Virus record (IMG/VR): IMGVR_UViG_3300028393_000256
Location: 1-29,739 of that record
Source: a virus
Length of the DNA: 29,739 nt
Direction: 5' to 3' (one strand)
In this document: piece after piece, positions 3,231-29,739 of the stretch
How the letters are laid out: every line of letters starts with the position of its first letter
How positions within the stretch are numbered: position 1 is the stretch's first letter
Notes under the pieces: model-generated
Database searches by the model: none
Told to the model about the DNA's origin: nothing
What the model saw: only the letters and a program-made list of their open reading frames with translations
Translations under genes and position numbers: made by a program

Positions 3231-5738
3231 ATGACCACAACACCACGTCCAAATCTAGTATCATTGCCGATTTTAACTGAGCCGAGCGAATTAACCACCT
3301 ACATTTTAGCACAAGATTCAGCTGTTAATCAAATGATGGATGTTCCTACTGCAAGGGCGCTATTACAAACACCTAACGGGCCAACAGGGCCAACCGGTCC
3401 TAGGGGACCTCAAGGACCACAGGGTGTTCAAGGACCACAAGGTGTAACTGGACCACAAGGTGTAACTGGACCACAAGGACCACAAGGTGTAACTGGACCA
3501 CAAGGACCACAAGGTGTAACTGGACCACAAGGACCACAAGGTGTAACTGGACCACAAGGACCACAAGGTGTTCAAGGACCACAGGGTGTTCAAGGACCAC
3601 AAGGTGTAACTGGACCACAAGGTGTAACTGGGCCATTAAACAATACAGCAACTAACTTAGCTGGCGGAAATACTGGATCGATTGCAATTCAAGCTGCAAC
3701 TAGTGTAACAACATTTATTCCTATCGGAGCCAATGGTACGCTATTGCAAAGTAACGGAGTGACTGCCAATTGGGCATCTACTAGTACATTAAAAGTAGGA
3801 TACGCCGTCTCGGTTGATCAGTTGTTTATCAACCAATTAACCACTTCGACAAATCCAGCTATACGTTATCCTGCTATGGCAATTGGAGCAGGCGGTTATG
3901 CTACATTAGGTGCTGCACAAGAATTAACATACGACACAAATAGCCAGTCATTAACTGCTGGCGGAATGACCTTGACTAATGTTACTTCGGCAACTAGTTT
4001 ATATTCCGGTGCGTTGGTAGTTGGGGGCGGAGTTGGTATTGCAGGTGATTTGTGGGTCGGCGGTATTTTACATATTGATACTGTTAGTACAGCTACTAAT
4101 ATTGCAGGTGGGACTGCTGGACAAGTTCCATTTCAAACAGCTACAAGTGTTACAAGTTTCTTTGGTCCGGGTACAGCGGGAAATGTTCTTGTAAGCAACG
4201 GAACAAATGCTCCTACATACAATAATACACTAACATTAACCAGCTTAACCGGTGCCACATCAACGTCAAGTGGTGCATTGCAAGTTGTAGGCGGAGTTGG
4301 TATTGGCGGCAATTTGTATGTTGGTGGGAAAATTGTTGCGCAAGAATTAGATATTCAATTAACAACCATAACAACAACGTTGGTAGTCACTGACGATATC
4401 ATAAAAACATATAACACCACTACATCCAATTCTACTACCAGTGGTGCATTAGTTGTTGCGGGTGGCGCAGGTATCGGTGGAGATTTATATGTTGGGGGGA
4501 ATATATATCCCCTTGGTATTATAGGAACAATATCCACTGCATCTAATATTGCAGGTGGGACTGCTGGACAAGTTCCATTTCAAACAGCTACAAGTGTTAC
4601 AAGTTTCTTTGGTCCAGGTACAGCGGGAAATGTTCTTGTAAGCAACGGAACAAATGCTCCTACATACAATAATACACTAACATTAACCAGCTTAACCGGT
4701 GCCACATCAACGTCAAGTGGTGCATTGCAAGTACGTGGCGGCGCAGGTATCGGTGGAAAACTATATGTAGGCGGTTTGGCTAATAACACTTCTTCATATA
4801 TTGTTTATTATAACACATCCAATGGTGAACTCGGGTACGGTGTTAATTATGGTGGTAGCAGTGGAGGCATTACTAGCCCATACGCCGGAATATTTACAAT
4901 TACTAATACCACTTCTGCTATATCAACTACCACTGGTGCTTTACAAGTTCGTGGCGGCGTTGGCATCGGCGGCGACATATACGGCGGCAAAAATTTATAT
5001 ATAACAACTCCAGGAAATGCAACTAACTCTTTGTTTATAGGACCAACAGGTAATACTGTAGGCGGCGGCCAGGCTAATTTATATTTAGGCAACAGCGCCG
5101 GAAATACGGTAGCCACAGCATCAGTCTTTTTTAATAACTGGAGCGCTGGCGCGCCAGGATCTGCATACCTACAATACACTAATTCTAGTGGTAATTTTGA
5201 ACTTAAGAATAATCAGAGTGGCGGAAAGATTATAATATCCAGTTCTGCAGGTACTGCTATTACTGTACCTGCTAATACGAAAGATGTACAATTTGCAGGT
5301 ACTGTTACTATTGCTAGTGCAGCAGTATCAACTAATACTTTTACTGGAGCATTACAAGTTGTAGGCGGTGTTGGTATTGGCGGAGATTTGTATGTTGGTG
5401 GGCAAATATATGGTCTAAGTGAAATTACCGCATACTACGGTAGTCCTTCGGATAGCAGATTAAAAACTAACATTGTAAATATTGATAACGGGTTGGCTAA
5501 AGTTTTGATGTTAGACGGAGTTACATACAATTGGAATGAACTGGCCATTAACAAAGATCTTACCACTAAAGAAGTAGGCGTTATTGCTCAGCAAATTCGA
5601 GATGTACTTCCAGAGGCAGTTGTCGAAAAAGAAGATGGTTACTTAACAGTCAAATATGAAAGAATTATTCCGTTATTGATCGAAGCTATTAAAGAGTTGT
5701 CAGCCGAAGTTGAAGACCTTAAAAAGAAAATTCAGTAA
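3231..5738 (+). CDS. tail fibre with collagen repeats and S74 chaperone domain
   Basis: This 835-residue protein has (1) an N-terminal attachment segment of about 48 residues, (2) a Gly-x-y collagen-like stretch (about 50-134) with GPQGPQGV and GPQGVTGP units, (3) a long beta-rich shaft containing six copies of a module of type SGALxVxGGxGIxGDLYVGG, and (4) a C-terminal peptidase S74 intramolecular chaperone starting [11 protein letters not shown]. In S74 domains the catalytic Ser and a Lys five residues later cut the chaperone off after trimerisation; here S740 and K745 have that spacing. The end is a coiled coil ([15 protein letters not shown]). It should form trimeric receptor-binding fibres. 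A near-perfect 190-bp direct repeat lies in the shaft. Confidence 0.9.
3379..3633 (+). repeat. collagen-like tandem repeat DNA
   Basis: Tandem variants of GGACCACAAGGTGTAACT and GGACCACAA encode Gly-Pro-Gln and Gly-Val-Thr/Gln triplets. Units are almost identical at the DNA level, so slippage or recombination could change fibre length. Confidence 0.9.
4096..4285 (+). repeat. 190-bp direct repeat, copy 1
   Basis: It matches 4543-4732 at an offset of 447 bases. The only difference I find is G at 4169 against A at 4616. It encodes an [17 protein letters not shown] fibre segment. Confidence 0.9.
4543..4732 (+). repeat. 190-bp direct repeat, copy 2
   Basis: Second copy of the repeat at 4096-4285, in the same reading frame of the fibre gene. 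Near identity at silent sites means recent duplication or gene conversion. Confidence 0.9.
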
Positions 5739-6601: not shown

Positions 6602-7117
6602 ATGAATATCAACGAATACGGCGCAGTATTTCTAACACCTGAAGAACTATTTGAGAATCTTTATAACGGTAAAGTTAAAGATTTTAAAAATATCCATTTG
6701 GATAAAGCTACCACAGACCAATTTAATTCTGCAAAGAATCTAAACAAAGATAGTTTTGATAATTTAGAAGAATATCAACAGCCCGCAGAATCGTTAGATT
6801 TATTTGATCGAGCAAATCAAGAAAATTGGTTTATGCCCGAAGAATACAAAAGCATGGACATAGAGGGTTTTTTAGTCGATCAATGTCCTGAACAAAATTA
6901 CGAACGTTTAGTGGATGAGCTAGTACTGTTCCGCCAACATAATATGATACCCCTACTGAGATACCTTAAATACTTAGTAGATACAATGCGTGAAAATAAC
7001 ATTGTATGGGGTGTAGGACGTGGTAGCAGTGTTGCAAGTTATGTGCTATATCTAATTGGAGTTCATAAAATAGACAGTATCAAATATGATCTAGATATTA
7101 GAGAATTCTTAAAATAA
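6602..7117 (+). CDS. orphan DNA polymerase III alpha-like fragment
   Basis: The last half of this 171-residue protein matches the region just before the catalytic palm of C-family DNA polymerases: YERLVDELVLFRQHNMIPLL, then VWGVGRGSSVASYVLYLIGV and HKIDSIKYDLDIREFL. In DnaE the same order (RL..EL, the GRGS loop, IDPLKYxLxFERFL) is followed by the catalytic aspartates. Here the protein stops immediately after EFLK, so those aspartates are absent and polymerase activity is not expected. The N-terminal half is acidic, polar and unrecognised. Its mRNA is probably leaderless. It may bind primer-template or polymerase parts, or be a domesticated relic; both are guesses. Confidence 0.75.
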   Translation: MNINEYGAVFLTPEELFENLYNGKVKDFKNIHLDKATTDQFNSAKNLNKDSFDNLEEYQQPAESLDLFDRANQENWFMPEEYKSMDIEGFLVDQCPEQNYERLVDELVLFRQHNMIPLLRYLKYLVDTMRENNIVWGVGRGSSVASYVLYLIGVHKIDSIKYDLDIREFLK

Positions 7118-18896: not shown

Positions 18897-21800
18897 ATGT
18901 CAAAACAGATTATCAATGTAGGGTCAGCAGAATTAACAGGAGACGGCGAAAGTCTCCGAAGTGCTTTTATAAAAGTCAATGCAAATTTTGACGAAGTCTA
19001 TTCAGCAACAAACACTATTCTCACGGTACCAACTAATATAAGTGCATTTAATAATGATATAGGATATCTAACATCTAGTACTTTATCAGCATATTTGCCC
19101 AACGATAACGATACTGAATATGCTACCAAAACATTTGTCACCGGCCAAGGTTATACAACAACTGCTACCGTTAACACATCAATAGCCAATAGTCTAACTA
19201 ATTATGCTACCAAAACATTTGTCACTACTCAAGGGTACCTAACAACTTCTACATTACCGGTAGTACACACCGACCGCATCTCAAGTGGTACTGTATCTAT
19301 ATATGTCGCCGCCGATGGCAAATTAAATCTACCAAGAGGTAGTTTGGTATTCAACAATACTGCCAGTGTAGTTGCTAGTTTGGCAGATATAAATCTTCAA
19401 CAAGTATTAACTCACAGTACTACCAGCACTGATTATATTGCCGCTGGTACATACGATAATGCCAATCCTTACAATGCTCCATACGTGGTAATTCGGTTAG
19501 AAGTAACTCCACCTGTACCATTATTCCAAGGTGATATTCTAGCAGGTGCTGGATTCCCTGTACCTACTACGATCAAATATGCCGGCACTGGAACATTCTC
19601 CAATGTATTGATATTAGACTGCGATTTTTCAAGAGTATTGTTGCCTGCTCCTCCTGTGACTATAACAGTGGCAAGACCTTTAGTTAATGATGCGTTAACT
19701 ATCGAAAGCACTGATGGTATAGATCTAGTACTAAAGCCGGGCGGCGATAGAAATACCATTATACACAATGACCTAATACCATACGGCCAATATGGTAGCA
19801 GTTTAGGATCACCTATCAACAGATTCAAACACCTATGGATGGGTGGTGGTACTATCTATCTCCAAGACGAAATTACCAATGCTGACACTGCCATTACTGC
19901 CCGTAATGGACAGTTCACTATATTAGGTGCTGCTGGATTAACAGTTGGTGAATTTACCTTTGTTGATAATCAGATTAAAATTGCCAATCCTGCTCGTGAG
20001 ATTATTATAGGAACAACAACTGCCACAGGTTTTGTTAACTTTAACCGTCCTGTGAAGATGACAGGAAGCAGTGGCAATAAGGTATTTGAAATTGATAGAT
20101 CTGGATTGGTTAGTATATATCCAAAGCAGAGCATTTCTGTATCAGAATCAGCATTGAGCATTATTGGTAATGCCGCAGGCCTACAACAGGACCGAAACTT
20201 TACTGGTACTATGCTACAAATTACTGGGCAGAACGGTGTTAGTACTCGAGTTAGTATTGATTCGTTTGGTACTGGTGCTTATCCTGTTATCGCAGGTCGT
20301 GCTGCACGTGGTACTGTTCAAGCACCAACTGCGACCAAGGCAAATGATGTATTGTTTAGGCTGGCCACTCAAGGGTATGGAGATAACCAATATGTGCAAA
20401 GTATTGGTCGTATTAGTATCCAGGCCTCACAAGACTTTACCAATGCACACGCTGGCACACAGGTAATAATACAAACTACCCCAAATGACTCTAACATAAT
20501 CACAACCAGTACTGTATTCAACGATCGGGGTATAGACTTTGATGGCAATGCTACGGGTGGAATAACGTTCTATGATCGTACTCGTCAAACCACAGCCTGG
20601 ACTGGCACAGTTGATGTTAGTTTGATTAATAATTTAGGCAGCGGTGCAGTAACATCCATTATTATTAATACAGATGGATTAAGTGGCACAAGTGGTCCAG
20701 GTGCTGCCTCACTTAATAATACTGGAGTAATATCTGTTGCGGGAACTACCAATCAAGTATATATTAATACTGTTGGAAATACTACAGCCACTAGTGGTCA
20801 CATTACACTTACATTACCTCAAGATATTGCTCCTACAAGTAATGTAACATTTAATGATGTTAATATCAACGGACAATTAAATTTTGTAGGGACAGCCACA
20901 ATCTTAGTTCCAAATACGGTAGAAGGTACAACTTTACTATTGGGATCTTCTGCTACTAGTATAAGTCAATTAGATGGAGGCGGTATAATATTAGGTAGTA
21001 CTGCTACAGGTCGAACTTCAATACTATGGAATAGGACAGATAATTATTGGGATTTTGATGGTAGTGGCATCAACACACAAAAACTACAGGTAACTACAAC
21101 GGCCACTATTAATAGTCTTGTAGTAGCAGACAGTGCTCACTTTGGTAATAGTAATATTATTGGTGATTATCCAACCGCCGAAATACAGATTGATAGTAAG
21201 ACTGACAGTTATAGTCAAATAATATTCCAAAATCATAGTTCCAGCACATTTGCAAGTACAGATTTTGTAGCCACAAATGAAATTGGCACAGACACTACTT
21301 ACTACATTGATATGGGTATCAATAGTAGTCACTACTATGACCCTACAAATTGGAACATAAACGGTGCCAGCGACGGATATCTATATGTTAACAGCGGTAA
21401 TTTAGCTGTCGGTACTACTAAAGATGAAATTGTATTCTTTACTGGAGATCAAACTGATGCCGGTTCAATACGTGCTACTATTGATAGCACAGGGTTAAAT
21501 GTTGCAAACACAGTGACCAGTTCTAGATTTTATGGACCACTAACGGGTGCAGTCACTGGCAATGTAACAGGCAATGTTAGTGGTAATGCTGGGTCAGTGA
21601 CCAACGGTGTTTATAGTAATCAAACTTATAACAACCCTGTTTGGATTGGATCACTGGCAGGTAGTAAGATCACCGGTGCAGTAGCATTGGCTACCACGGT
21701 AACTAATGGAATTTATAATACCGACACCGGAACAGTTACAAACAATATGTTGGCCGGTAATATTGCCAATAACAAACTAGCATTTAATCAAATAACATTT

Positions 21801-22733
21801 ACTGCTGGTAACGGGATTGGAGTTAGTGTAGCAAGCCCAAGTTTAGGCGGTAGTACAAGAATTGATAATTTGGGTGTCACAAGTATTGTTGCTGGCACCG
21901 GTACACACGTTAGTACATCAACAGACGGTGTTGTTGTATGGATTGACGGAAGCTATGGGCCACAAGGGCCACAAGGACCTACAGGTAATACTGGACCACA
22001 AGGACCACAAGGACCTACAGGTAATACTGGTGCAGTTGGGCCACAAGGACCTACAGGTAATACTGGACCACAAGGACCACAAGGACCTACAGGTAATACT
22101 GGTGCAGTTGGGCCACAAGGACCTACAGGTAATACTGGACCACAAGGACCTACAGGTAATACTGGACCACAAGGACCTACAGGTAATACTGGACCACAAG
22201 GACCACAAGGCGTAATTGGTAATACTGGTGCAGTTGGACCACAAGGACCACAAGGCGTAATTGGTAATACTGGTGCAGTTGGACCACAAGGACCTACAGG
22301 TGCTGCAAGCACAGTTTCTGGTCCACAAGGACCAAGCGGGCCGACAGGTGTAAATGGTGTTACTAGCATATTAGCAGGTACAGGCACAGTTATATCAACA
22401 TCAACTGGTGCTGTGACTGTTAGTATTAATACTGCTACATTGATGACTCAAGCAGTGTCCCTTATCGGTGTCACAAGTATTGTACAAGGTAGTATATCAA
22501 TTGATTTTGCAAACGTGGGTAAAAACGCTGCATCAAGTCAGACATTTCTAATACCAGGACTGACTACAAATCATCATATTATTATTCAACCGGCGGCGGC
22601 TATGACGTTTGGATTAATAGTTACAGCAGCTTGGGCAAGTGCTACCAATTCGGCAACAATACAAGTAATGAACTTAACCGGTGGTGGTATTGATCAGGCA
22701 GCAATCAATGTTAATTATTTTGCCTGGGTTTAA
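18897..22733 (+). CDS. giant collagen-repeat tail fibre (1278 aa)
   Basis: The N-terminus, [20 protein letters not shown] and NFDEVYS, is a fibre attachment domain found in many phage fibres. Next come two copies of a [11 protein letters not shown] unit (about 77-120), a very long beta-rich shaft of Thr/Asn/Gly-rich strands with [14 protein letters not shown] and [15 protein letters not shown] segments, a collagen-like region (about 1021-1152) of GPQGPTGNT and [12 protein letters not shown] units, and a C-terminal domain of about 125 residues. Unlike the first fibre it has no S74 chaperone. AGGAG sits just before the ATG. It is probably the long receptor-binding or side fibre. Confidence 0.88.
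21958..22353 (+). repeat. collagen-like tandem repeat DNA
   Basis: Higher-order repeats of GGACCTACAGGTAATACT and GGACCACAA, interspersed with GGTGCAGTTGGGCCACAA, encode Gly-x-y triplets. The unit composition differs from the 3379-3633 array, although the GGACCACAA core is shared. Confidence 0.9.
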
Positions 22734-23387: not shown

Positions 23388-24119
23388 ATGCAATTAAATG
23401 AAGGCGGTAATGTAATCCCAGGTGCAGTCGAATTACAAAAGGCAAATTTTCCTTTAGTAATGGCCAACTTAAAAAAGATTCTTCCTCCAGGAGTGAATAC
23501 ATATCCTATTGGATCAGCAGGACACAAAGAAGTCAGTAGCGATATTGATGCACTGATCGATGCCGCAGAATTAATGAAGGCATTTCCCGCTAAAGAATTA
23601 AAACTATCACGCAAGGCTTTAGAAGATTACTTTAAAAGCAAAGGGCTGTATGCTGCTCGTACAGGTGTTAGTATCCACGTTGGTATTCCAATTGGCTCTA
23701 CACAAGATGTAGTACAGGTAGATTTAATGGCTGTGGAAAATGCAGCCGCTGCTCAACCACTGCACACACATGACTATACTGATCCTCAAATGAAGGGTGG
23801 CACACTACATGGTATGTGGGCTGACCTAGCCAACATGAGCTCAAGCCCAGAACACCCCAGTATGATGATGAGTCCTTATAAAGGTCTTGTTGATCGTACA
23901 ACCAAAGAACTTATTACTGCTAACAAGGATGAGATTGCCAAGACTATTATTGGACCAACTGCCACAGCAGCCGATATGGGCAATCCACAACGTGTTCTAG
24001 CCGCATTGAAACAGTATCCAGAAAAATATACAGCTATCAGAGACAAATACTTTCCTGGTGCTGACCTAAAAGAAGGCTCGCGTGAATGGTTTAGATTCAT
24101 GTTAGACCATATCGTATGA
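23388..24119 (+). CDS. Pol-beta-type nucleotidyltransferase
   Basis: The 243-residue protein shows the Pol-beta superfamily signature: YPIGSAGHKEVSSDIDALID with G42-S43, then D52 and D54 as metal ligands, and VQVDLM with D112 as the third. Such enzymes transfer nucleotides to RNA, protein or small molecules (tRNA nucleotidyltransferases, antibiotic adenylyltransferases, MNT toxins); the target here is unknown. The start, MQLNEGGNVIPGA, has LNE/G close to residue 5, resembling a prohead-protease site. It overlaps the next gene by ATGA, so both are made together. Confidence 0.8.
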   Translation: MQLNEGGNVIPGAVELQKANFPLVMANLKKILPPGVNTYPIGSAGHKEVSSDIDALIDAAELMKAFPAKELKLSRKALEDYFKSKGLYAARTGVSIHVGIPIGSTQDVVQVDLMAVENAAAAQPLHTHDYTDPQMKGGTLHGMWADLANMSSSPEHPSMMMSPYKGLVDRTTKELITANKDEIAKTIIGPTATAADMGNPQRVLAALKQYPEKYTAIRDKYFPGADLKEGSREWFRFMLDHIV

Positions 24120-25258
24120 AAATAACTGAACTATTGTCCGAAGCAGCAGCCCCTACAGTGGGTCGCAAGTACCAACACATCGAAGATTTGGTCTTTACCA
24201 ACGGCAGCAATGGTGGATTACACGCCGTTGAGCGATTACAAAGTATGGGCACACAGGGCAGTACCATTGAATTAAAATGGGACGGTAGTCCAGTAATGTA
24301 TTGGGGCAAGGACGAGCAAGGTCGCTTTAGCATGATACCAAAGAATGCTTGGGAATATCTCAAGCGTGGTAAAACTGAAGTAGCACCAGGCGTTCCAGCA
24401 GCAATGTACAGCCCGGAAGATATTAAAAACTTTATCATGGGCACAGGTAAAGCAACTCCTGAACAGGCACCACAACGTCAAGCCTATGCTGAAGAAATGA
24501 TGAGCCTATGGCCTTACTTTGAAAAGGTAAGCCCACAAAAAGGTTATGTTGAAGGTGGATTACTATTCTATCCCAGTAAGCCTGCACAAATGAATCCCAG
24601 CACACAGGAATACGATTTTACTCCTAACATCACAGCATTTCATATTCCAGTAGGTAGTGAGTTGGGCAAACGTATTGCCAAAGCCAAAGTTATGGTCGCT
24701 GTCACAGGATACTACGATGGTCTGGGTAGCGGTGAAGAAGGACGGTATCCCAACGCAGAAGCATTGAGCACACCAGATGTTATTGTACAGGGTACAACCT
24801 ATGTTGAGAAAGCACCAGGTGTTGAAGATGCAGGCCTAAAGAAAGCTGAGCAATTTATCACTGCCAATGCTGCCGCAATTGATGCGTTCCTAGCACCAAA
24901 GCCCGGATTAAGCAAGCCCGGAGATATCTTATATAAATTCTATAATCAAAATCTACGCATACCGGGTGTTGCTGACAAGTTCCAAGAATGGGTCACAGCC
25001 AATGTAAGTGCAGGTCAGGCACAGAAGATCCTTGCTGATCAGAAAGGACTTAACGCTGTTCTACAATCTGTAGATATGTTAAGTAAAGAAAAGTTACAAT
25101 TGATTACCAAACTAAGTGCAGGCACACACGGTGGTATCCGTCAAACCAAACCAGAAGGTTATGTACAGGCACACCCAGGTACGCAATTCAAGCGTGATCT
25201 ACCTGGACAGTTTGTCAAAGCAATCGACCAAGCCAATTGGGCACCAAGAAGAGACTAA
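24116..25258 (+). CDS. ligase/capping-type nucleotidyltransferase with capsid-targeting leader
   Basis: The 380-residue protein begins MKITELLSEAAAPTVGRKY. ELLSE/A is like the leader of T4 internal proteins (MKTYQEFIAEA), removed in the prohead. IELKWDGSPV gives K54-x-D56-G57, motif I of covalent nucleotidyltransferases, where Lys takes AMP or GMP. YVEGGLLFYPS (E146) fits motif IV, and AKAKVMVAV may be the KxK-like motif V. DNA and RNA ligases and capping enzymes share this fold; the exact class is uncertain, as spacing between motifs is longer than usual and no OB domain is obvious. It is flanked by two other nucleotidyltransferase types. Confidence 0.72.
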   Translation: MKITELLSEAAAPTVGRKYQHIEDLVFTNGSNGGLHAVERLQSMGTQGSTIELKWDGSPVMYWGKDEQGRFSMIPKNAWEYLKRGKTEVAPGVPAAMYSPEDIKNFIMGTGKATPEQAPQRQAYAEEMMSLWPYFEKVSPQKGYVEGGLLFYPSKPAQMNPSTQEYDFTPNITAFHIPVGSELGKRIAKAKVMVAVTGYYDGLGSGEEGRYPNAEALSTPDVIVQGTTYVEKAPGVEDAGLKKAEQFITANAAAIDAFLAPKPGLSKPGDILYKFYNQNLRIPGVADKFQEWVTANVSAGQAQKILADQKGLNAVLQSVDMLSKEKLQLITKLSAGTHGGIRQTKPEGYVQAHPGTQFKRDLPGQFVKAIDQANWAPRRD

Positions 25259-25259
25259 T

Positions 25260-27758
25260 ATGTTTTTAAGAAATATTTTCGAAGCTATACAACGAACAGG
25301 ACAAGGCAAGACAGCCGTTGTTGGTTGGGGCAGAGGTATGGGCCACAAAGGACATATGATGTTGGCCAGTAGTGTTATTACACAGGCAAGTAAAGTAGGT
25401 GGCGATCCTTACTTTGTTGTTAGTAAGACCGTGGGAAAAGATGATCCAATTACTCCAGATGAAAAGATAGCAATCTACAAGAAAGTATTTCCACAAAGCG
25501 GACACATTTTCCAACCTGCTACAGATGAGATTCCGGATCTAACTCGCGTATTGGCCAATTTAAATCAACAAGGTTATACAAGTGTCACAGTAGTGCTAGG
25601 TGCTGATCAAGTTAAGGCCTTTCAATACCTGAAGAATTATAACAATAAACCAGACAAATCAGGCAATATTCTATACAGTTTTGACAATTTAGACGTCATA
25701 AGTCGTCAAGAAACAGGAGATCCTAGTGCAGGGGAAGAAGGACCACGAGCTACACCAATGCGAGCCGTATTAATGGATCCTAGCAAAAGTGAGCAAGAAC
25801 AATTCCAAGTTTGGCGTGACGCAATGAGTCCAGAGATTGGAGACGACGAAGTTCGAGATCTAATGATGAAGGCCAAACAGCGTATGCAGGCAATGGTCAA
25901 GCCAAAGAAAGGTTTAAAAGAAATGGACAAATCACAAACTCCTCCGGGACGTGACGGACATGTAAGTCACGGCACATACGGTTCTAGAGACAAGAAAGAT
26001 CCGGATGCTGGTAAGAAGCAATATACTGCTAAAGGAATTACTGCCAAACAAGCAACTACAGCAGCTACCGATATCCTTAGCAAGGCATTTAAAGACTCAC
26101 AAAGAGTAGATCCACGCACTGGTAAAAAGATGGTTCAGAAAGGTGTGGCAGAGGTCACTGGTGATAAACCGTTTGACAAGATGATGACAACTATCAAGCA
26201 GGGAACTAACAAACAAAAAACCGCAGACCGCAAGGAACAGCAAAAACAAACTCAACAAAGAGCACGTGATGCTTTTGGTAATATGTTTGGTGGTGGCAAT
26301 CCTGCTGACCAGTTAAAAATTAGAGAGCAAGGTGTGGCGGAAGGCTCGGGCATGAATGTAGTCAAATCAGTCAAGGTAGGAAACTTCAGACACGATTTGG
26401 TCAATACTGGAATGGGTTGGCAGGTTCGGATCTATAACGGTGATGAACTTTATGATACTGGGTTGAGCAAGAACTCTGAAGAAAAAGGTTTAGCCGCATT
26501 GGATAACTCAGTGGCATACACTAAAAAGCAACTAAACATTAAAGAGCAAGGTGTGGCGGAAGGCTTGGATCCTGATCAGCGAGCAAGATTAGATGACCTA
26601 ATTAACACCTATAGAGATGCTACTGATCCATCCAACGACGGATACGGCGTTGACGATCATTACGATCCCGATGAAGTGTTAGATCAGATCCGACAAGAGT
26701 TTGGTGATAATGTTGCCAACAAGGTAGAAGCAGGCACAAATAAGATGCATTTTCCACGCCAGAATCACTCTTCGGGGTATGGCGACTCAATGCGTTGGAA
26801 AGAACCTATAGGTCGTATTACCAAAGCAGGTAAGATGTTTAAGCAAGACAGCGACTATAGAAAGAACACACTAAAATCTAGATTACGCAATACAGGAAAA
26901 GTAACAGAGCAAGGTGTGGCGGAAGGCTTGAACGAATTTGCTCAGGGTGATTTTAATGGCAGTGATGACAGCAATGATTTACAACTTTATCTTAATGTTG
27001 CTAAAAAGTTGAATATGAAAAAATATAAGCCATCAACAGCACACGACCTAATCGCAAAGAAAATGGCCGAGTTAGTTGATGCGGTTGATGATGAAAAAGT
27101 AGATTGGGCTCGTCATATGGCTCGTAAGGCACAAGGCTTACCGAGTATGTTGGATCAGCAAGGTGTGGCGGAAGACTTGTCAGAAATGGATAATCGTACA
27201 CCGAGCGGTGACCGCCGCGAACAAAGAGCAAATAGCCCAGAAGCAAAAGCCCAGCGTGAAAAAGAACAACAGAAACGTTTAAAAGATACAAGCCCCGAAA
27301 TGCGTAAAAAGTTACGCTTACCAGAACCAAAAGAAGGTGTGGCGGAGGCAGGCAGCAATGCCATGGATACTGTAGCTAAACGCTTGACCAATCCTAAAGA
27401 TGGAATGTCTGCTAAACTACGTGCGGCCGGTGATAAGAAACGTGATAGTCAGTATATGGGCTCACAGATTGCCAAGAACGATCGTACTAGCAAAGACGAA
27501 TGGGGCAACCTAAAAGAACTATCCAATGATACGTTAGGTCGTTATAAAAAAGCCGCCAGTGCAGATGCAACTGCTGCTGATAAAGCAGGCGACTACAAAC
27601 GTGCAGACAAACGTTTCAGTGGTATTGTCAATGCAACTAAGAAACAGTTTGCTAACGATGCTAAAAGTGTCCCAGTTAGCGAAGGTGTTGAGAACATTAT
27701 GGACAATCTTATCAATAAGATTATTATGAATGAAGCAATATCGAATAACCGTAGATGA
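25260..27758 (+). CDS. HxGH nucleotidylyltransferase fused to GVAEG-linked cassettes
   Basis: ATG 25260 is chosen, two bases after the preceding stop; the frame is open further up, but that part overlaps the ligase-like gene. Of 832 residues, 1-225 form a cytidylyltransferase-like domain: VVGWGRGMGHKGHMMLASSV (HxGH-type motif as GHKGH), VTVVLGADQVKAF, and EGPRATPMRAVLMD in place of ISSTxxR. The rest is hydrophilic, with six copies of [E/Q/K]-[Q/E/K]-GVAE-x (residues 293, 356, 429, 550, 633 and 691) separating cassettes of about 58-121 residues. It ends INKIIMNEAISNNRR. I infer a packaged multi-domain protein, perhaps cut at VAE/G. Confidence 0.8.
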   Translation: MFLRNIFEAIQRTGQGKTAVVGWGRGMGHKGHMMLASSVITQASKVGGDPYFVVSKTVGKDDPITPDEKIAIYKKVFPQSGHIFQPATDEIPDLTRVLANLNQQGYTSVTVVLGADQVKAFQYLKNYNNKPDKSGNILYSFDNLDVISRQETGDPSAGEEGPRATPMRAVLMDPSKSEQEQFQVWRDAMSPEIGDDEVRDLMMKAKQRMQAMVKPKKGLKEMDKSQTPPGRDGHVSHGTYGSRDKKDPDAGKKQYTAKGITAKQATTAATDILSKAFKDSQRVDPRTGKKMVQKGVAEVTGDKPFDKMMTTIKQGTNKQKTADRKEQQKQTQQRARDAFGNMFGGGNPADQLKIREQGVAEGSGMNVVKSVKVGNFRHDLVNTGMGWQVRIYNGDELYDTGLSKNSEEKGLAALDNSVAYTKKQLNIKEQGVAEGLDPDQRARLDDLINTYRDATDPSNDGYGVDDHYDPDEVLDQIRQEFGDNVANKVEAGTNKMHFPRQNHSSGYGDSMRWKEPIGRITKAGKMFKQDSDYRKNTLKSRLRNTGKVTEQGVAEGLNEFAQGDFNGSDDSNDLQLYLNVAKKLNMKKYKPSTAHDLIAKKMAELVDAVDDEKVDWARHMARKAQGLPSMLDQQGVAEDLSEMDNRTPSGDRREQRANSPEAKAQREKEQQKRLKDTSPEMRKKLRLPEPKEGVAEAGSNAMDTVAKRLTNPKDGMSAKLRAAGDKKRDSQYMGSQIAKNDRTSKDEWGNLKELSNDTLGRYKKAASADATAADKAGDYKRADKRFSGIVNATKKQFANDAKSVPVSEGVENIMDNLINKIIMNEAISNNRR
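26136..26156 (+). repeat. GVAEG repeat, diverged copy
   Basis: CAGAAAGGTGTGGCAGAGGTC encodes QKGVAEV. First copy in the 25260 gene. Confidence 0.75.
26325..26345 (+). repeat. GVAEG repeat, consensus copy
   Basis: Encodes EQGVAEG. The DNA core CAAGGTGTGGCGGAAGGC is identical to the copies at 26544, 26907, 29444 and 29612. Confidence 0.95.
26544..26564 (+). repeat. GVAEG repeat, consensus copy
   Basis: Encodes EQGVAEG after NIK; all 21 bases equal those at 26325-26345. Confidence 0.95.
26907..26927 (+). repeat. GVAEG repeat, consensus copy
   Basis: Encodes EQGVAEG after GKVT; all 21 bases equal the consensus copy. Confidence 0.95.
27156..27176 (+). repeat. GVAEG repeat, near-consensus copy
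   Basis: Encodes QQGVAED; it differs from consensus at the first base and in the last codon. Confidence 0.9.
27330..27350 (+). repeat. GVAEG repeat, diverged copy
   Basis: AAAGAAGGTGTGGCGGAGGCA encodes KEGVAEA; the core GGTGTGGCGGA is kept. Confidence 0.8.
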
Positions 27759-27990
27759 TGTTCCACAGGACAGCGGCGATGACGCTTATCTTGACCCAGC
27801 GGATCCAATACACGCCCTAAAAGCAACCAGCATTATGGGTGGATTAGGTGGGCAAGCACGTCTAGCAGAATACAATGCTACTCTTAGACAGCCTGTTGTA
27901 GGTAGCAACAAAGGTCAAATACAACGCGAACAAGGAATTAAACCTGGCACAGATGAATGGTTTAAACTCTGGTTCGGTAAGAATAAATAA
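27730..27990 (+). CDS. unknown small protein (86 aa)
   Basis: The start lies 29 bases inside the end of the cassette gene. The product begins MKQYRITVDDVPQDSGDDAY and ends TDEWFKLWFGKNK; GTDEWFKLWFG resembles the end of the Pol-beta-type protein (GSREWFRFMLDHIV), perhaps a shared short motif of this module. No named family. It ends in the TAAATA box ahead of dps. Confidence 0.65.
   Translation: MKQYRITVDDVPQDSGDDAYLDPADPIHALKATSIMGGLGGQARLAEYNATLRQPVVGSNKGQIQREQGIKPGTDEWFKLWFGKNK
27984..27989 (+). promoter_or_regulatory. TAAATA box, putative late promoter for dps (near-leaderless)
   Basis: TAAATA overlaps the preceding stop and ends seven bases before the ATG at 27997, with the same spacing as at 18432-18446. 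Confidence 0.5.
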
Positions 27991-27996
27991 CATATC

Positions 27997-28440
27997 ATGG
28001 ACAAATTAATTCAACTCACTCGCATTGGATTTGGTACAACTTTTAGCTTTTATGTGAAAGTTCATAGCTTTCATTGGAACGTGGAAGGTAGTGATTTCTA
28101 CGAATATCATAAACTTTTTGAGGAAATCTACAATGAAGTTTACGGTGCAATAGATCCCTACGCAGAAAATGTGCGTAAGCTAGGTGGCTACATCCCTACC
28201 AGTTATCATAATCTCAGCATGTTGACCAAGATCGAAGACGAGGATCATGTGCCAACTAAAGAAGAAATGGTACAAGAATTACTACAAGATAGTGAACGTA
28301 TACAGATTGTTCTTAAGAAAAACTACGATGCTGCCGAAGCTGCTGGGGAACACGGGCTTTCAAACTTCCTAGCAGAACGCATGGACAATCATAGAAAACA
28401 TGCATGGTTCCTACGTGCAAGTCTAAAAGGATCAATGTAA
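27997..28440 (+). CDS. dps: Dps-like mini-ferritin
   Basis: The 147-residue protein carries the Dps signature KVHSFHWNVEGSDFYEYHKL and IDPYAENVRKLGG. H26, H38, D53 and E57 have exactly the spacing of the E. coli Dps ferroxidase ligands (H51, H63, D78, E82), so iron oxidation in a dodecamer is expected, protecting DNA from peroxide. It lacks the long Lys-rich DNA-binding tail. There is no visible ribosome site; a TAAATA box ends seven bases upstream. It sits among genes with capsid-type leaders, but its own N-terminus (MDKLIQLTRIG) has none. Confidence 0.9.
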   Translation: MDKLIQLTRIGFGTTFSFYVKVHSFHWNVEGSDFYEYHKLFEEIYNEVYGAIDPYAENVRKLGGYIPTSYHNLSMLTKIEDEDHVPTKEEMVQELLQDSERIQIVLKKNYDAAEAAGEHGLSNFLAERMDNHRKHAWFLRASLKGSM

Positions 28441-28814
28441 TGCGTATCAATGAATTAATTAGTGAAGCTGTTGTTGGAAAAATGAAAAAGCGTCACGCTG
28501 CTGTTCAACAGGGTGTGACTAAAAGCCGCGACGTTGGTGGATACGATCGTGTAAATTATATGAACCGTAAGTGGATGGCTACTGCTATGGCTGACGGTAA
28601 GAATAAGAACAAGGGTGTTGATATGGACGCATATAGTTGGATGGAAAAATACAACACCGAACATCCATACACCGAAGAAGAATACAACATGTTCCGCCAA
28701 GCTGACAAAACCGTTCCAGGTGATGTCAAACATGTGACTCCGTGGAGCAAGAGTTCAGAACCAGAAGATACTCATAAGGTAAGCCCCATAGCAAATTGGA
28801 ATAAAACAAAATGA
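28440..28814 (+). CDS. small basic protein with capsid-targeting leader
   Basis: The ATG at 28440 overlaps the dps stop (TAATG). The 124-residue product starts MRINELISEAVVGKMKKRHA; ELISE/A parallels ELLSE/A in the 24116 gene and the T4 internal-protein leader. AVQQGVTKSRD at about 22-32 looks like a decayed GVAEG repeat. The rest is Lys- and Trp-containing, with no known family. A small packaged DNA-associated protein is the inference. It overlaps the next gene by ATGA. Confidence 0.72.
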   Translation: MRINELISEAVVGKMKKRHAAVQQGVTKSRDVGGYDRVNYMNRKWMATAMADGKNKNKGVDMDAYSWMEKYNTEHPYTEEEYNMFRQADKTVPGDVKHVTPWSKSSEPEDTHKVSPIANWNKTK

Positions 28815-29739
28815 ACAACGAATTTAAAAAAGTAAAAGGTGTTAATGAAACACACTATATTTTAGAAACTGCCAGCGGCGGTGCTACCAGTGCAGGTGCT
28901 GTTGCATCTGTAGCAGGAGGCGTAGGCAAAGTTCAGAAGCGCGGAAACTTATTAGCACAAGAACAAAAGAAAGAAGCACCCAAGCCTCGTAACTTTGTAG
29001 TCAAGAACGCCAAGATGGGCGGTGCTGGTCAGCACAAGGATAAGAAGAAGGCAGAGAAACAGGGCGATGTAAAACATCGTAAACCATTTGCCGAGCAAGG
29101 TGTGTCAGAGGGAGAAAATTGGGATAAATTGACTCCGCAACAAAAAGCACACGAATATAATTTAGATGCAGCACAAAGAGAATTAGATCGCCGACATGAA
29201 CAAGGCGAAGACATGACTGGTGCCAAGATTGATAAGAAAACTTATAAAATCGTTAAACCTAAACAGCAAGGTGTGGCGGAAGGTGAATACAATCCTGATA
29301 CTTTCGTAGGCAAAAAAGGAACATACAAAGGATATGGCATAACACAGGAAGGCCCATACCAATGGGGTATCAGTTCTAGTCTTAGAAAATTCTCCACGCT
29401 GGCGGCTGCCAAACGACATATTGATAAGGTCTTGGTAGTGTCAGAGCAAGGTGTGGCGGAAGGCAAAGAAGATCCAGCATCATTAAGAGCCAAAGCCAAA
29501 GAGATCAGTGACAAAATTGATGCTATTGTAAAAGATGGTGGCCGAGTTGGTTTTAACGATCCATTAAGCAGACAATTAAAAGGAATACGAGCAAAGATTC
29601 AACAAGCTAAAAAACAAGGTGTGGCGGAAGGCTCGGAACAAGAAAAACCAATCAAGAAAAGTGACTGGTTTGACCCAACTGATATGCGTAGCCCAGAAAA
29701 GCAAAAGGCTGCTTACTTGAATCACTTAGCTGCTAAGAA
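28811..29739 (+). CDS. GVAEG-cassette protein, partial at 3' end
   Basis: An open frame runs from ATG 28811 past the window edge (309 codons seen). It starts MNNEFKKVKGVNETHYILET, then a Gly/Ala-rich stretch (ASGGATSAGAVASVAGGVGK) and a basic region with KRGNLLAQEQ; this type of start occurs, to my recollection, in T4-like virion proteins. Four GVAEG-type repeats at residues 95, 152, 212 and 268 separate short cassettes. One of them (EYNPDTFVGKKGTYKGYGIT and on) resembles in plan the 26346-26543 cassette: a small beta unit with a central Trp and an Ala-rich helix. It is the second protein of the same modular design. Confidence 0.8.
   Translation, partial: MNNEFKKVKGVNETHYILETASGGATSAGAVASVAGGVGKVQKRGNLLAQEQKKEAPKPRNFVVKNAKMGGAGQHKDKKKAEKQGDVKHRKPFAEQGVSEGENWDKLTPQQKAHEYNLDAAQRELDRRHEQGEDMTGAKIDKKTYKIVKPKQQGVAEGEYNPDTFVGKKGTYKGYGITQEGPYQWGISSSLRKFSTLAAAKRHIDKVLVVSEQGVAEGKEDPASLRAKAKEISDKIDAIVKDGGRVGFNDPLSRQLKGIRAKIQQAKKQGVAEGSEQEKPIKKSDWFDPTDMRSPEKQKAAYLNHLAAK
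29093..29113 (+). repeat. GVAEG repeat, diverged copy
   Basis: GAGCAAGGTGTGTCAGAGGGA encodes EQGVSEG; the first 12 bases equal consensus. Confidence 0.85.
29264..29284 (+). repeat. GVAEG repeat, near-consensus copy
   Basis: Encodes QQGVAEG; it differs from consensus only at the first and last bases. Confidence 0.95.
29444..29464 (+). repeat. GVAEG repeat, consensus copy
   Basis: Encodes EQGVAEG; identical to the copies at 26325, 26544 and 26907. Confidence 0.95.
29612..29632 (+). repeat. GVAEG repeat, consensus core
   Basis: Encodes KQGVAEG; the 18-base core CAAGGTGTGGCGGAAGGC is intact, the first codon is AAA. Confidence 0.95.

Follow-up and report, generated by a model that had tools for sequence, protein, structure and literature searches.

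A repeated in-frame segment in two genes of the window

The DNA analysed here, referred to as the window, is a stretch of 29,739 nucleotides covering positions 1 to 29,739 of the IMG/VR virus record IMGVR_UViG_3300028393_000256. Two of its open reading frames (ORFs), ORF 1 (25260-27758) and ORF 2 (28811 to the window end), contain ten copies of a short repeat, or adapter, whose 18-base form, CAAGGTGTGGCGGAAGGC, encodes QGVAEG. Every copy lies in the frame of its ORF, and the segments between copies are called cassettes. The two genes and the ten copies are listed below, with a slash at the candidate cleavage point.

ORF 1, 25260-27758, plus strand: start resembling a capsid-targeting sequence (CTS), MFLRNIFE/A; cytidylyltransferase-like N-terminal domain, then cassettes parted by six repeat copies
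ORF 2, 28811-29737, plus strand, running off the window: start MNNEF...YILE/TASGGATSAG, resembling the gp23 maturation site; cassettes after it
Repeat copy 1, 26139-26156, plus strand: KGVAE/V, diverged
Repeat copy 2, 26328-26345, plus strand: QGVAE/G, exact
Repeat copy 3, 26547-26564, plus strand: exact
Repeat copy 4, 26910-26927, plus strand: exact
Repeat copy 5, 27159-27176, plus strand: QGVAE/D, 1 mismatch
Repeat copy 6, 27333-27350, plus strand: EGVAE/A
Repeat copy 7, 29096-29113, plus strand: QGVSE/G, diverged
Repeat copy 8, 29267-29284, plus strand: 1 mismatch
Repeat copy 9, 29447-29464, plus strand: exact
Repeat copy 10, 29615-29632, plus strand: exact

All 18 bases are present in five of the ten copies. 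Four are identical over 21 bases (GAG plus the 18-mer; starts 26325, 26544, 26907 and 29444), while the copy at 29615 has the exact 18-mer and matches over those 18 bases only. Seven matches at up to 3 mismatches occur in the window, against none in dinucleotide-shuffled windows. These coordinates confirm a preliminary description of this DNA, which had placed ten copies in two genes, always in the same frame, with four that agree at each of 21 bases and one that shares the 18-base core. Its length of 21 bp holds for those four copies but not in general: the conserved unit runs from -2 to +17, some 20 nt, and weaker copies differ by 1-5 changes.

Spread and conservation of the repeat as DNA

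The exact 18-mer is found in at least 120 IMG/VR contigs, where the repeat is almost always in frame, in long ORFs and often in many copies; the other segments of these ORFs are mostly unrelated to one another. All sequences compared are metagenomic contigs, and 20-bp repeats can mislead assemblers, which raises the question of misassembly at a short exact repeat. This explanation is highly improbable, given that samples of independent origin agree in cassette order (five metagenomes for L155-L159, three for L186, L187 and L190), that repeat ORFs of up to about 1500 codons stay open across many repeats, and that the window is identical to locus L154 over 10,137 bp.

Within repeat ORFs, 526 copies at up to 5 mismatches are in frame, 362 of them with 1-5 mismatches, whereas just 3 lie in another frame and 3 on the antisense strand. 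The base profile of 279 copies forms a sharp block from -2 to +17 (AGCAAGGTGTGGCGGAAGGC) with almost no information outside it. In non-exact copies the Ala codon is GCG in 99 of 120, compared with 10% elsewhere in the same ORFs; the Val position is GTG in 95 of 120 (25% of Val codons elsewhere), and GGT is kept in 109 of 120 (46% elsewhere). Because the 18-mer contigs had been picked by the repeat itself, loci retrieved via homology to window proteins served as a control set of 50 QGVAEG-type copies, 23 of which are exact over the 18-mer and 46 of which have GCG. The fixed silent sites noted in the preliminary description are therefore upheld as an excess of GCG, GTG and GGT over background, for GCG also in homology-retrieved loci. 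Freely varying linker codons, which that description had named as counter-evidence, were seen in neither set.

Among pairs of related cassettes whose proteins are less than 95% identical, silent sites agree at 62-79% in the repeat and at 40-66% in the body of the cassette. We read this as decay of single copies combined with renewed spread, rather than absolute constraint on the DNA; the silent sites of the repeat are not frozen, and spread via recombination fits better than a frozen site. Where the preliminary description had proposed DNA that was recently spread, converted or constrained at the nucleotide level, spread agrees with these data, whereas constraint is too strong a term for copies that decay in this way.

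A selfish in-frame element copying itself into coding sequence would have a parallel in Rickettsia palindromic elements, longer palindromic insertions in which one repeated sequence stands in frame in unrelated genes. A single DNA sequence scattered in frame over many genes is compatible with such an element, but the copied unit here is a cassette plus repeat and not a bare repeat, the 20-nt block contains no palindrome, amino-acid selection persists in old copies, and out-of-frame or antisense copies are almost absent from the examined ORFs. We give this possibility very little weight.

Outside these contigs, the exact 18-mer gave 26 single matches in bacterial genomes, many of them high-GC, a number near chance for 257 Gb (estimate); none had a second copy, and they were set aside. 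Cultured phages gave only 17-base matches to the DNA repeat (E = 3). In cyanophages, related domains are present without the adapter. A 708-aa protein of Synechococcus phage S-SM2 (L337:4099-6225) joins some of the same small domains without QGVAEG, and could represent a condition that preceded the adapter system or lies outside it.

Cassette exchange at the repeat

Relatives that are 60-96% identical in the N-terminal domain of ORF 1 carry quite different cassettes downstream, or none. In the empty alleles, at loci L186, L187 and L190, the stop codon TAA comes right after CAAGGTGTGGCGGAA. Locus L192 represents a filled allele, in which two extra cassettes (267 aa) stand at the CAAGGTGTGGCGGAA point; its stop is unchanged and the sequence past it is homologous, such that empty and filled alleles agree in both flanks. 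The second of the two cassettes stands directly at that site in L188, and L185 carries another one there.

Pairwise comparison of all repeat ORFs gave 1461 internal homology ends; 404 of them fall no more than 6 nt from a repeat, where 81 were expected and none of 200 random draws exceeded 103. Among 294 cassette pairs at least 80% identical in DNA, both flanks are unrelated in 45 and one flank in 71. Single cassettes of 80-100% identity are found between unrelated neighbours, and in L050 one cassette is present twice, in two ORFs, at 99.4% identity. Where a neighbour has changed, differences in the repeat concentrate at the end facing it, as expected if the crossover falls inside the repeat. 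Two cassettes of the window are among the transposed pairs, GSGMNVV... with L179 and L020, and GEYNPDTF... with L018. These two and a third window cassette with relatives elsewhere are as follows.

Cassette GSGMNVVKSV...IKEQGVAE, 73 aa, 26343-26561, plus strand: same cassette behind unrelated neighbours in L020, L179, L177 and L256
Cassette GLDPDQRARLDD...QGVAE, 121 aa, 26562-26924, plus strand: relatives in L018, L099 and L168 behind different cassettes
Cassette GEYNPDTF...VVSEQGVAE, 60 aa, 29282-29461, plus strand: 90% DNA identity to the L018 cassette, with both neighbours different

The mosaic and its seam are thus established by sequence comparison, with cassettes gained, lost and exchanged at breakpoints in the adapter. 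Empty and filled alleles, clustered breakpoints and single transposed cassettes support the modular exchange at the repeat that had been proposed for this DNA; an unchanging set and order of cassettes, named beforehand as evidence to the contrary, was not what the relatives compared displayed.

These features also bear on the idea that the repeat is recognised by a dedicated recombinase or nuclease, with cassettes moving site-specifically in an integron-like or homing-like manner. Fixed codons, a sharply bounded block of about 20 nt and the movement of cassettes as single units, also within one genome, would suit such a site. However, copies with 1-5 mismatches are common, and the change-over within the repeat shows no visible fixed point. 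A RecA/UvsX family gene in 10 of 15 records makes general recombination available, and no dedicated recombinase was seen among the window ORFs, no systematic search, relatives included, having been made. We consider a dedicated site quite unlikely.

The encoded peptide as a candidate protease site

Copies with 3-4 mismatches indicate which parts of the peptide are retained. Changes in the Glu codon are 31 silent against 3 replacing, and in the Gln codon 3 silent against 75 replacing. In the same copies Val is replaced only by M, I or L, and the last Gly mostly by Ala, Asp, Glu, Val or Ser. The Glu of codon 5, at P1 of the candidate site, is replaced in 2 of 164 copies with 1-2 mismatches, in 3 of 135 with 3-4 and in 7 of 63 with 5. 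What persists is Glu preceded by a residue that is mostly small and, before that, a hydrophobic one. Some ORFs end exactly at QGVAE followed by a stop, and V-X-E also occurs in the CTS-like starts of neighbouring genes, such as MRAREFVKE/A, which are themselves putative sites.

The T4 prohead protease gp21 cuts after Glu in the motif L/I-X-E, and T4 IPIII in which Asp takes the place of that Glu escapes processing (PMC9026906). Of 15 records, 11 encode Peptidase S77, and these are also the ones that encode gp23; after four more records were added, S77 was present in 14 of 19. S77 is missing from five records, each a short fragment or a perhaps incomplete linear contig, and the four of these tested for gp23 were all without that gene as well. 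Contig G002, which carries S77, gp23 and a RecA-family gene, overlaps the window end by 457 identical bases; the two are likely but not certain to be the same genome, the overlap falling in exchangeable cassettes. Peptidase S78, considered as an alternative protease, was found in none of 8 records.

The amino-acid pattern and the company of the repeat are best explained if the adapter encodes the cut site, GVAE/G, of the phage's own gp21-type prohead protease (Peptidase S77), which we regard as probable. The earlier suggestion that the linker may be a protease site is strengthened by selection for a P1 Glu and a hydrophobic P3, by CTS-like N-termini, by the likeness to gp23 sites and by a gp21-type protease in the genomes; cleavage itself is a prediction.

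Proposed link to the phage head

CTS-like N-termini are found in 75 of 138 repeat ORFs, compared with 17-20 on shuffling and 309 of 1415 other ORFs. Starts such as MKLNDVILE/A, MNVFELFE/A and MRAQEFITE/G are like the capsid-targeting sequences of T4. A second group of repeat ORFs, which includes ORF 2 of the window, starts MNNEF...YxLE/TASGGATSAG, for example YVLE/TATSGATSAGVVAT, and resembles HLAE/SATAGATSAGNIAT, where gp23 of these phages is presumed to be cut on maturation. Mass spectrometry of purified S-SM1 virions identified T4-GC190, the cyanophage homologue of the ORF 1 N-terminal domain (PMC3037559), a detection that covers that homologue only. The S-SSM7 member of T4-GC190 starts VKSFGQFLTE/A.

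An alternative would be that the repeat is a flexible linker and recombination seam only, and that the protein stays whole as a multidomain protein of the polyvalent type. Exchange at the seam accounts for the mosaics without cleavage, and phage polyvalent proteins are known to be multidomain and packaged (PMC5512222). A plain linker does not explain why Glu and the hydrophobic residue two positions before it persist in decayed copies in which Gln and the last Gly change freely, why some ORFs stop exactly after QGVAE, or why an S77 protease, gp23-like sites and CTS-like starts accompany the repeat. We judge it unlikely and favour the cut site.

Stand-alone genes near repeat loci present similar starts. 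Many in L154-L310 begin like T4 internal proteins (IPs), with MRAREFIAE/S, MKIRELIIE/A or MRAKEFIVE/T, which suggests a large set of head-packaged cargo genes. Two genes of the window have such starts.

DUF6267 protein, 24116-25258, plus strand: CTS-like start MKITELLSE/A; probable stand-alone cargo gene, its function a prediction
ORF containing the start MRINELISE/A, 28404-28814, plus strand: includes an SRDVGGYDR domain

The SRDVGGYDR domain of the second gene is also present in L199, where it forms a C-terminal segment behind RAQEFIKE/G, and in similar segments of L211 and L212.

Nature of the cassettes

The 581 distinct cassettes fall into 390 families, of which 290 are singletons. Their length ranges from about 25 to 255 aa, with a median of 75 aa for those with a boundary at each end. 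The majority belong to no known family. Among the domains recognised are GNAT acetyltransferases, DUF6321, a deaminase, nucleotidyltransferases, the SutA RNAP-binding domain, ParB_N (a cassette in L192) and sigma-70 region 4. The last (E = 2.9e-18) lies soon after a repeat in L163:6664-7548, a cytidylyltransferase ORF with cassettes. A Pfam scan of 61 ORFs detected no embedded peptidase family at E <= 0.001, and one cassette compared with PDB sequences gave no convincing match. In a three-cassette structure model of low confidence, each of the four repeats it contains falls in a segment predicted poorly, and a single folded cassette separates the first repeat from the second; a fold search with this model returned no match at E <= 0.001.

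Other genes of the window

Between ORF 1 and ORF 2, positions 27997-28440 encode a Dps/ferritin-like protein (Pfam Ferritin). Two large genes (3231-5738 and 18897-22733) with long collagen-like G-P-Q/T repeats are probable tail fibres, and the C-terminal end of the first resembles an intramolecular tail-spike chaperone. A short ORF at 6602-7117 seems to be a fragment; its end is similar to a stretch conserved in bacterial replicative DNA polymerase (GVGRGSSVASYVLYLIG).

Discussion

The account that we consider probable as a whole combines a recombination adapter, a gp21-type cut site and a head-packaged polyprotein cargo in T4-like freshwater phages. The polyprotein would enter the prohead through its N-terminal capsid-targeting sequence, and the prohead protease would cut it after each adapter Glu into separate cargo proteins. 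The freed cargo would stay in the head and then be ejected into the host, as are the internal proteins and Alt of T4. Crossover in the adapter could proceed by ordinary phage homologous recombination (UvsX or annealing), such that a cassette flanked by the standard sequence would be captured in frame and with a working cut site. Such capture would keep one DNA spelling common across phages despite the decay of single copies.

Several points weigh against this account. The gp21 rule of L or I at P3 does not hold for the repeat, whose consensus is V with M, I and L as substitutes, and the candidate gp23 sites of the same phages have L at P3. The fixed Gln-Gly and the fixed codons are not explained by a protease site alone, and 20 bp is short for RecA-type recombination. 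The CTS pattern is permissive, fitting 22% of other ORFs too, and the homology-end and cassette-pair counts are not independent, some loci being overlapping or near-duplicate. The three-cassette model is weak (mean pLDDT 55) and supports repeat accessibility only. Cleavage, virion location and ejection in these phages are predictions from sequence.

Within this account the parts differ in strength. Delivery into the host is presumed by analogy with T4 Alt and the internal proteins, and separate delivery of each cassette, a further step, is only slightly favoured. A broader version, in which many T4-like phages of the community keep a 20-nt standard part because it serves as both in-frame recombination adapter and head-protease site, and packaged effector cassettes circulate among phages as interchangeable units, possibly with a dedicated recombinase, is tentative, with the balance a little against it.

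If the account is true, these phages would possess an open, fast-changing set of proteins delivered with their DNA and built by recombination at the very seam that separates the products. Segments between two adapters would be candidate host-takeover or counter-defence proteins that can be found directly, and the in-frame, separable shuffling of modular phage proteins would become testable.

A literature search returned no paper on QGVAEG and, in the papers it covered, no description of such adapters or of such a system. In T4-type adhesin genes, short conserved DNA segments within the coding region are the seams at which variable segments are swapped; these adhesins are receptor-binding tip proteins on the virion exterior, and their motifs are Gly-rich and contain no protease site. 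Exchange at short conserved coding motifs is shared with the adapter described here, which differs in being a candidate protease site. Unlike in Rickettsia palindromic elements, what moves here is a cassette with a non-palindromic 20-nt repeat at its borders.

Many head and ejection proteins of phiKZ and SPN3US are likewise cut after X-X-E by the prohead protease, some at several sites (PMC5694885). There the cuts mainly remove propeptides, and the part of that account consulted describes no nucleotide-conserved in-frame adapter or cassette exchange. Polyvalent proteins also join many unrelated domains in one polypeptide; they are thought to be delivered with the DNA, and their authors liken them to viral polyproteins (PMC5512222). 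Their release was proposed to occur via embedded peptidase domains (PMC5512222), whereas here the head protease would cut at the repeated adapter, which doubles as the seam for recombination.

A further comparison is with the T4 proteins IPI-III and Alt, whose CTS is cut by gp21. A short N-terminal sequence ending in a hydrophobic residue, any residue and Glu before a small residue is common to both systems, the same phages encode an S77 protease and gp23, and the cargo is expected in the head. T4 cargo genes mostly give one mature protein each, with Alt also cut near its C-terminus; in contrast, many cassettes are joined here in one ORF by a repeated internal site of nearly fixed DNA, at which the predicted cutting would take place in the predicted head location.

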